Assembly (NCBI RefSeq): GCF_036227205.1
Contig: NZ_CP109442.1
Span: 248,001 to 312,000, forward strand
Source: Amycolatopsis sp. NBC_01480
Lineage (GTDB): Bacteria; Actinomycetota; Actinomycetes; Mycobacteriales; Pseudonocardiaceae
Direction: 5' to 3'
DNA: 64,000 bases
A program made the position numbers and the translations under genes. A model generated the notes under the pieces. It searched no databases, had not been told where the DNA came from, and saw only the letters and a program-made list of their open reading frames with translations. Shown here in pieces: positions 21,576 to 64,000 of the stretch; the stretch's first letter is position 1; each line of letters starts with the position of its first letter.

Positions 21576-21621
21576 CTCGTGAGTGTTCATGACGGTTAGA
21601 ACCGTCATGAACACTCACGAG
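21576..21621. repeat. 46-nt perfect inverted repeat, family copy 1 (between convergent zur and TIGR03943 genes)
   Basis: Two 22-base arms with no mismatch flank a 2-base centre (AG). The arms begin CTCGTGAGTGTTC and end ATGACGGTT. It abuts the stop codon of the convergent gene at 21622. Its position between two converging 3' ends fits a bidirectional terminator. Two further copies are at 44417-44462 and 63351-63396. Confidence 0.9.
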
Positions 21622-33836: not shown

Positions 33837-34225
33837 CCCCCCACCCTACAAACCACCCCAACCACCACGCCGCAGGCGACCCTAAAACCCACCACGCTGA
33901 TTCAGCACCACCCGCACCGTGGGGGGTCCGGGGGGCTCGGCCCCCCGGGCAATACGCGGAAACCGCTGCGGCGAAGGAGGCTGCGAAGCACCTCCGAAGA
34001 CGCCGCGGGCGGTGGAGCCTGGGGGTCGCTCCACCGCTCCGCGGCTCCGCCGGACCGAGGGGGGAGGTGCCCGGCGGGGTTTTCGGGTACGCGCACACCG
34101 GTGTTCCCACCCAGTTGCGCGCCGAAACCTTGGTTTTCTTGCGCGTCGGTCACGAGCGTAGCTGCCCGGAGCGTGATCACGCCATAACTCGCCGCAAAAT
34201 CCGCGCGTTTTTTCCCTGGTCCGGC
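33837..34225. other. Hairpin-rich gap of about 390 bp between rsmE and the HIT gene
   Basis: Several nested inverted repeats are visible: GGGGGGCTCGGCCCCCC near 33930, GTGGAGC...GCTCCAC near 34010-34034, and CGCGGCTCCGCC near 34040. A minus-strand frame from GTG 34180 to 33902 (92 residues, VITLRAATLVTDAQENQGF) is open, but the second half is Pro/Ser/Arg-rich and looks non-coding. It could be a dispersed intergenic element. No confident gene is seen. Confidence 0.4.
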
Positions 34226-44416: not shown

Positions 44417-44462
44417 CTCGTGAGTGTTTGTGACGGTTCTAACCGTCACAAACACTCACGAG
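44417..44462. repeat. 46-nt perfect inverted repeat, family copy 2 (between convergent SSI and DUF4153 genes)
   Basis: Perfect 22-base arms with centre CT; same arm ends as copy 1 (CTCGTGAGTGTT, GACGGTT), with a TTG/CAA variation that is compensated on both arms. It lies two bases after the SSI stop and two bases before the convergent stop, like a bidirectional terminator. Confidence 0.9.
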
Positions 44463-62480: not shown

Positions 62481-62635
62481 CCTCGACCGAGCGGGCGGTG
62501 CCGTACTACTGCCCGTTCTGCGGCGACGAGGACCTGCGTCCCGAGGAGGGCGGCGGCTGGCTGTGCACCGGCTGCCGCCGGACGTTCTCGGTGAAGTTCC
62601 ACGGACTGTCCCTACCGGAGGTGTCGCACGGATGA
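62477..62635 (+). CDS. Small zinc-ribbon protein in the sulfur operon
   Basis: A 52-residue protein with two Cys pairs, YYCPFCGDEDL and WLCTGCRRTFSV, making a zinc ribbon. GTG at 62477 overlaps the reductase stop and its own stop overlaps the cysH start (ATGA at both junctions), so it is coupled on both sides. Its role in sulfite reduction or assembly is unknown, but its conserved place suggests one. Confidence 0.85.
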   Translation: MTSTERAVPYYCPFCGDEDLRPEEGGGWLCTGCRRTFSVKFHGLSLPEVSHG

Positions 62636-63327
62636 CCGCCACAGCGGATTACCGGACCCTGGCCGAACGAGCGTCGAAGGAGCTGGCCGACGCCACCGCC
62701 GAGGAGGCGCTGCGCTGGACGGCCGAGACCTTCGGCGACGACTTCATCGTGGCGTCCAACATGCAGGACGCGGTGCTGATCGACCTGGCCACCCAGGTCA
62801 AGTCCGATGTGGACGTGCTGTTCCTGGAGACCGGCTACCACTTCGCCGAGACCATCGGCACCCGTGACGCGGTGCAGACCGTGTACCCGGACGTGACGAT
62901 CGTCAACGCCCAGGCCGAGCAGAGCGTCGCCGAGCAGGACGCCGAGTACGGCGCGAAGCTGCACGACCGCGACCCGACGCTGTGCTGCAACCTGCGGAAA
63001 GTGGTGCCACTGCGCAAAACCCTGGCCGGCTACTCCGCCTGGGTCACCGGCGTCCGCCGGGTCGACGCCCCGACCCGCGCGAACAGCCCGATCGTCACCT
63101 GGGACGAGCGCAACGGCCTGGTCAAGATCAACCCGATCGCGCCGTGGACCGACGAGGAGTTCGCCGGCTACATCCGCGAGCACGGCATCCTGGAGAACCC
63201 GCTGGTCTCGGTCGGCTACCTGTCCATCGGCTGCGCGCCGTGCACCGCGAAGGTCGCGCCGGGGCAGGACCCGCGCAGCGGCCGCTGGGCCGGCCAGGCG
63301 AAAACCGAATGCGGGCTGCACGGATGA
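62632..63327 (+). CDS. cysH: Phosphoadenylyl/adenylyl-sulfate reductase CysH (APS-type)
   Basis: A 231-residue enzyme reducing APS to sulfite. The [4Fe-4S] ligands typical of the APS type are LCCNLRK (CC near 117) and GCAPCTAK. The C-terminal catalytic Cys is in TECGLHG. ATG at 62632 is coupled to the small zinc-ribbon gene. It uses the product of CysD/CysN encoded next and supplies sulfite to the upstream reductase. Confidence 0.95.
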   Translation: MTATADYRTLAERASKELADATAEEALRWTAETFGDDFIVASNMQDAVLIDLATQVKSDVDVLFLETGYHFAETIGTRDAVQTVYPDVTIVNAQAEQSVAEQDAEYGAKLHDRDPTLCCNLRKVVPLRKTLAGYSAWVTGVRRVDAPTRANSPIVTWDERNGLVKINPIAPWTDEEFAGYIREHGILENPLVSVGYLSIGCAPCTAKVAPGQDPRSGRWAGQAKTECGLHG

Positions 63328-64000
63328 CGGCGGCGGGCGAAGAGACAAAGCTCGTGAGTGTTTATGACGGTTCTAACCGTCATAAACACTCACGAGTCCT
63401 GGAGCCGGCCCAGGACAACCTCGCCGCTCTGGAGTCCGAGGCGATCCACATCTTCCGCGAGGTCGCGGGCGAGTTCGACCGCCCGGTGATCCTGTTCTCC
63501 GGCGGCAAGGACTCGACGCTGCTGCTGCACCTGGCGATCAAGGCGTTCTGGCCCGCGCCGGTGCCGTTCCCGCTGCTGCACGTCGACACCGGGCACAACT
63601 TCGACGAGGTCATCGACTTCCGCGACCGGGTGGTGGAAAAGCACAACCTCCGCCTGGTCGTGGCGAAGGTCCAGGACTGGATCGACGACGGCCGCCTCGA
63701 AGAACGTGCCGACGGCATGCGCAACCCACTGCAGACCACGCCGTTGCTGGACACCATCTCGGACAACAAGTTCGACGCCGTGTTCGGCGGCGGCCGCCGC
63801 GACGAGGAGCGGGCCCGCGCCAAGGAGCGCATCTTCAGCCTGCGCAACTCCTTCGGCCAGTGGGAGCCGCGCCGCCAGCGCCCGGAGTTGTGGAACCTCT
63901 ACAACGGCCGTCACCGCCCCGGCGAGCAGGTGCGCGTCTTCCCGCTGTCCAACTGGACCGAGGCCGACGTCTGGAACTACATCGCGCGGGAGAACGTCGA
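63324..64000 (+). CDS. cysD: Sulfate adenylyltransferase subunit 2 CysD (3' end outside the window)
   Basis: The visible 225 residues have the PP-loop ATP-sulfurylase motif ILFSGGKDSTLLLHL and LLHVDTGHNFDEVIDFRD. ATG at 63324 overlaps the cysH stop. Residues 10-25 (LVSVYDGSNRHKHSRV) are encoded by a 46-nt perfect inverted repeat that lies in frame ahead of the conserved start of the protein (LEPAQDNLAALESEAIHIF). No ATG follows the repeat before the conserved domain, so the repeat must be translated unless the GTG inside it is used. Confidence 0.93.
   Translation, partial: MTAAGEETKLVSVYDGSNRHKHSRVLEPAQDNLAALESEAIHIFREVAGEFDRPVILFSGGKDSTLLLHLAIKAFWPAPVPFPLLHVDTGHNFDEVIDFRDRVVEKHNLRLVVAKVQDWIDDGRLEERADGMRNPLQTTPLLDTISDNKFDAVFGGGRRDEERARAKERIFSLRNSFGQWEPRRQRPELWNLYNGRHRPGEQVRVFPLSNWTEADVWNYIARENV
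63351..63396. repeat. 46-nt perfect inverted repeat, family copy 3, inside cysD
   Basis: Perfect 22-base arms around CT. It is the same element as at 21576 and 44417 apart from one paired change (TTTATG/CATAAA). Here it lies within the first 25 codons of cysD and keeps the frame open. In the mRNA it would be a 22-bp hairpin just after the cysH stop. Confidence 0.9.

Follow-up and report, generated by a model that had tools for sequence, protein, structure and literature searches.

The window analysed here is the whole stretch of 64,000 nt. At its right-hand end the genes cysH and cysD overlap on the forward strand, and a 46-bp palindromic element stands in frame within the first codons of cysD. 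The features referred to in the text are as follows.

62632 to 63327, forward strand: cysH (PF01507, PAPS reductase family), with its stop codon (63325–63327) 23 nt ahead of the element
63324 to 64000, forward strand: cysD, sulfate adenylyltransferase subunit 2, 324 aa in total, extending beyond the window
63324 to 63326, forward strand: the most likely cysD start, an ATG in an ATGA overlap with the cysH stop, its first base 27 nt before the element
63354 to 63356, forward strand: alternative in-frame GTG start, within the element's stem
63351 to 63396, forward strand: palindromic element of 46 bp with 22-nt arms about a central CT, whose in-frame reading is LVSVYDGSNRHKHSR(V)
21576 to 21621, no strand assigned: closely similar copy, flanked by convergent genes whose stops are 15 and 0 nt away
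44417 to 44462, no strand assigned: closely similar copy, flanked by genes that were called as convergent (the left-hand call is weak) and whose stops are 2 and 2 nt away

The identity of CysD was established from its PAPS_reduct domain (PF01507, residues 54–225 in the part of the protein that lies in the window) and from its alignment to the solved CysD 1zun_A. Homology to 1zun_A sets in only at residue 31, and the first residue of the Pfam domain is 54, so that the element falls outside the enzyme core.

The element had been described from the sequence alone as a 46-nt perfect inverted repeat. Its length and position stand, and its perfection does not: the two central nucleotides (CT) are unpaired, so that 44 of the 46 nt are self-complementary, and the ends are CTCGTGAG and CTCACGAG. 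The assignment of the element to cysD codons 10–25 without a stop was borne out, codons 10–24 consisting entirely of element and codon 25 (GTC) in part; the frame from the ATG at 63324 crosses it uninterrupted and reads LVSVYDGSNRHKHSRV. The two further intergenic copies reported for the window were also recovered (21576–21621 and 44417–44462), each differing by 2 nt from the arms of the copy at 63351. The cysD element folds as RNA into a hairpin of -39.2 kcal/mol (z = -10.6 versus shuffles), and the other two window copies, flanks included, reach -43.4 and -45.4 kcal/mol, respectively. The chance expectation of the element, determined from 100 shuffled windows, is 0.

Copies in the genome and in the genus

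This genome (10.1 Mb) is designated G000, and further genomes of the genus carry other G numbers. At cysD, the closest named relatives of G000 are species of Amycolatopsis. Copies were counted with a strict pattern (CTCGTGAGTG-N7-CGGTTCTAACCG-N7-CACTCACGAG) and with a broad pattern, in which the same ends enclose any 26-nt middle. G000 holds 233 strict copies (115 + 57 + 61 in a three-part recount) and 238 broad ones. The broad pattern is present in 55 of the 80 genus genomes (G000 included) at 1 to 245 copies each and supersedes the strict count of 37/80, which is too low because the centres vary; backwards control patterns gave 0 matches in the genus search. When middles of 20–34 nt were allowed, all 224 copies with these ends at the G000 loci measured exactly 46 nt.

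Sequence context was analysed for 222 of the 233 strict copies in G000. The variable heptamers are fully complementary in 81 of these (mean 20 and maximum 33 in 2000 shuffles) and in 20 of 119 distinct sequences (shuffles: mean 4.4, maximum 12), and 141 of the 222 copies carry at least one heptamer mismatch. Read in the CT orientation, frame 0 is open in 213/222 copies and one reverse frame in 17/222, and the other four frames are open in none. A search of Rfam with the element returned only two matches, both to miRNAs and both sub-threshold, for which reason they were read as chance. A made-up chain of element-encoded peptides, searched against a protein database, gave 724 candidates, of which 0 reached E ≤ 10.

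Gene orientation was assigned by a simple gene caller based on codon usage, for which the window served as the training sequence. By their neighbouring genes, 116 copies are convergent, 66 tandem, 3 divergent and 37 unclear (n = 222). The baseline, drawn from the window only (62 genes), comprised 48 tandem, 6 convergent and 7 divergent adjacent gene pairs, and against it the excess of convergent positions (116 of 185 classified copies) is significant with a Fisher p of about 1e-13. Stop codons facing a copy (n = 298) lie at a median distance of 3 nt: 203 are found at 0–20 nt, 72 inside the element and 22 further away, and one gene reads through; the TGA of CTCGTGA accounts for 61 of the 72 element-internal stops. 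A second species (G015), from stretches of which 35 copies were taken, gave a corresponding distribution (19 convergent, 5 tandem, 1 divergent and 10 unclear), with 33 of 43 facing stops between -46 and +20 nt (median 8) and gene-spanning copies in 0 of the 25 classified. The element is thus a REP in the broad sense of a short, high-copy palindrome close to gene 3′ ends, and as a REP-like element it is typical of gene 3′ ends in Amycolatopsis.

The flanks of the 222 copies lean to AAGGR on the left and YCCTT on the right and are weakly complementary, the first flanking pair matching in 102/222. Target site duplications, the mark of a MITE, were not found in these copies: the 2-nt flanks are equal in 6/222 and the 3-nt flanks in 3/222. 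The Y1_Tnp domain (PF01797) gave 0 matches in G000, with 5 of 14 control genomes positive. Neither a search of phages and plasmids with the cysD 46-mer nor a search of IMG/VR with the strict pattern produced a match.

The cysH–cysD junction and the CysD leader

The comparison of CysD N-termini and of the cysH–cysD junction that the sequence-only reading had proposed was carried out on 79 of 80 genus genomes (the G004 stretch yielded no junction). By leader reading and end motifs, the element is present at 1 of the 79 junctions, that of G000 alone. A search for the exact-ended element in 80 named cysD loci (312,829 bases) returned none, and query coverage above 93% was reached by none of the 120 CysD homologues listed, of 8000 scored. 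The leader of the relatives is short, typically MTTLEPATDAAQDNL, and without the element residues; across the junctions of the genus it is usually MTTLEPATDAAQDNLAALESEAI or near it. In the sister genome G047 (94% identity over the 1361-nt query) the leader reads MAEAEGSMTTLAEPAVDAAQDNL, the element is absent, and an ATG has been preserved 23 nt downstream of the cysH stop's first base.

These comparisons bear on the notion that the 16 residues are ordinary coding sequence that came to resemble the repeat by convergence. Relatives sharing the same residues on divergent DNA would be expected in that case, and the residues are absent from the relatives' leaders; the match to a 233-copy family and a chance expectation of 0 speak against convergence as well, and its probability is negligible. 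The proposal that the element moved in and was tolerated in a non-conserved leader is supported both by the relatives' leaders, which are without these residues, and by the onset of 1zun_A homology at residue 31.

In the cysD gene of G000 the usual start is gone, and the part from LEP to AQDNL is shorter. The flanks have diverged from those of the relatives, and the borders of the insertion are accordingly approximate. Before the conserved core, just two in-frame codons are ATG, GTG or TTG: the ATG at 63324, which overlaps the cysH stop, and the GTG at 63354 in the element. The next canonical start in frame lies 89 nt past the element, within the core. From either of the two starts codons of the element are translated; the ATG at 63324 is the likelier, as the GTG sits in the stem. 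Such a position is not unusual in the genus: an in-frame start at -3 to +1 of the cysH stop is found at 18 of the 79 junctions, G000 included.

Many N-terminal REPs may be extragenic through misannotated starts, as is pointed out by Di Nocera et al. (2013, PMC3733652), and CysD might correspondingly start downstream of the element at a non-canonical codon such as the CTG at 63399. The lack of any in-frame ATG, GTG or TTG from the element to the conserved core and the extension of the open frame back to the ATG on the cysH stop make such a start very improbable.

The element might also regulate in place, its hairpin terminating or slowing cysH–cysD transcription unless ribosomes coupled to cysH read through, so that cysDN would follow cysH translation. 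The strength of the hairpin, the terminator-like location of the copies at gene 3′ ends and the position of the element 27 nt behind an ATG that overlaps the cysH stop would all suit this role. However, the U-run that follows the stem of an intrinsic terminator is missing, the right flank having the composition YCCTT or nearly so over the 222 copies and TCCTGG at cysD. Since the element occurs in 1 of 79 genomes, regulation of cysD by it is not conserved, and in-place regulation as the account of the locus is considered unlikely.

A different, GC-rich palindrome (e.g., CTGGGGGAGACCCCCAG) stands in frame in the CysD leader of six genomes (G039, G015, G035, G010, G073 and G056; loci L134, L381, L396, L397, L428 and L429). 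In a tree of the cysH and cysD cores, the bootstrap of which is unsettled, the six carriers are distributed over four clades with good support, all separate from G000. The GC-rich palindromes may form one repeat family; similar contexts number only four in the G000 loci and the window. A GC-rich palindrome of the kind present in the CysD leaders of other species (GGGGGGTCCGGGGGGCTCGGCCCCCC) was observed at window positions 33921–33946. Because two kinds of palindrome have been taken up in separate Amycolatopsis lineages, the CysD leader might be used as a natural test of which hairpins can be translated and tolerated.

Other proteins and site comparison with the sister genome

A frame is open through the copy at 10 of the 79 gene 5′ ends that face one. 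The search for the element in other coding sequences, also suggested beforehand, yielded two more cases in G000, a PAP2-family protein and an AfsR-like regulator, so that in-frame protein cases checked against relatives number 3 (with cysD) among the 222 copies.

The PAP2-family protein (L221, C1:3497720, PF01569) carries the element in its leader, which reads MLETAET-LVSGNAGSNRSEHSRA-GGEVAVL. The copy lies 13 nt behind the upstream stop (identified by eye), and the native start is retained. An anchor motif allowed the leader to be read in 22 of the 30 loci retrieved and missed it in the other 8; in 19 of the 21 relatives so covered the leader is short and resembles MLEKG, and in the remaining two, G047 and G051, it contains a GC-rich palindrome. 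The element end motifs are found in 1 of the 30 loci, that of G000 only. In the AfsR-like regulator (L239, C1:4261773) the BTAD domain extends to residue 376 and the AAA domain begins at 400, and the codons of the element make up the linker that joins these domains. G047 shares this in-frame insertion with diverged stems, and 13 further loci (68–72% identity, putative orthologues) have shorter linkers without the element. In CysD, PAP2 and the AfsR-like regulator alike, the element is thus in frame in unrelated conserved proteins and missing from homologues, as is characteristic of Rickettsia palindromic elements (RPEs).

Open-frame candidates outside these three cases were compared with G047 only. 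L334 and L018 are possible further protein cases. At L334 (G000 C1:7049796–7053841) the element seems to give the upstream gene its stop (TGA), and the LytB-domain gene that follows may take its GTG start from the element in a GTGA overlap. At L018 (G000 C1:3464814–3467835) a transporter gene is short of about half a kilobase in its 5′ part relative to G047, and the element lies at the junction. The loci L279, L313, L308, L227 and L306 have open frames as well, but were rejected as protein cases because, in our judgement, their likely starts are behind the element.

For 20 copies in G000 the two flanks were joined and sought in G047. The site lacks an element there with modest change at L029 (clean), L167, L264, L267 and L286 and with larger changes at L019 and L331; at L154, L165, L223, L239 and L334 an element is present whose stems or centres differ. 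The G047 counterpart of L228 (L367) is an element that retains both outer arms and is interrupted by a sequence resembling an integrase (rve_3, at 23.4 bits under the Pfam cut-off of 26.5). A related shorter hairpin occupies L212, a different hairpin L256, L288 and L324, and a GC-rich palindrome L221; L018 and L208 were ambiguous. On these mixed outcomes the element moves or turns over, and its places are preferred ones; because about half of the 20 sites hold an element or a related or different hairpin in G047, part of the pattern is turnover at such places rather than fresh insertion. A rule by which 46 + 2 = 48 nt would preserve the frame was discarded, as the only cleanly empty site points to 50 nt (GA + 46 + GG).

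Interpretation and comparison with known systems

A probability of roughly three in four is assigned to the reading that cysD, lying close behind cysH in the operon, took up a REP-like 3′-end hairpin, which is read as a dispensable N-terminal leader. The usual place of the element is directly behind stop codons, mostly between convergent genes, where it probably ends or protects transcripts from both sides. In the G000 lineage a copy appears to have entered 23 nt behind the cysH stop. Because the junction is so tight, the native start region of cysD would have been replaced; the frame would have been kept because one of the element's six frames is generally open and the copy landed in that one. 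Translation would now begin at the ATG that overlaps the cysH stop codon, and the 16 element-derived residues would form an N-terminal leader presumably neutral to the enzyme. The case shows palindromes that code for protein in an actinobacterial genus of free-living antibiotic producers, and it suggests a simple route by which a hairpin from the 3′ end of one gene can, where operon genes stand close together, come to encode the N terminus of the gene that follows.

A bolder view, for now tentative and somewhat doubtful, would see in these elements an unrecognised actinobacterial class of small, mobile, stop-codon-seeking hairpins of exactly 46 nt without a tyrosine transposase, which would turn into N-terminal protein sequence at tight junctions and, at cysHD, would act as a translation-conditional bidirectional terminator.

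The sequence-only reading had known in-frame palindromic insertions from Rickettsia, and the novelty that it claimed on this ground was too strong: REPs are reported inside genes of several other bacteria, some of them N-terminal (Di Nocera et al. 2013, PMC3733652). The GTAG and CGTC REPs treated in that paper resemble the present element in being short and high-copy, mostly located between convergent or unidirectional genes near 3′ ends, with ends that may supply stop codons and with some members intragenic, N termini included. The main text of PMC3733652 contains 0 occurrences of actinobacteria, Amycolatopsis or Streptomyces. Unlike the REPs of those two superfamilies, the element is 46 nt long and actinobacterial, and its ends bear no unpaired GTAG or CGTC tag. 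It also differs from GTAG REPs in that no RAYT (Y1 transposase) to which it could be linked occurs in G000. CGTC REPs are likewise said to lack a RAYT.

The searches made of open-licence PMC papers did not yield the element family, its host group or the repeated use of the CysD leader. The SPRITE elements of pneumococcus, described in PMC10969869, are terminator-like repeat elements with a similarly strong hairpin; the present element, in contrast, is without a U-run and belongs to a high-G+C actinobacterium, and termination by it is putative. RPEs likewise stand in frame in unrelated proteins, where they are apparently tolerated, and their length is given as 105–146 bp (PMC2229807). The present element differs from them in measuring 46 bp and in being usually intergenic, with three checked protein cases among 222 copies. 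The in-frame palindromic repeat in cysD is real, and within the known phenomenon of intragenic REPs the element is a new, actinobacterial member.
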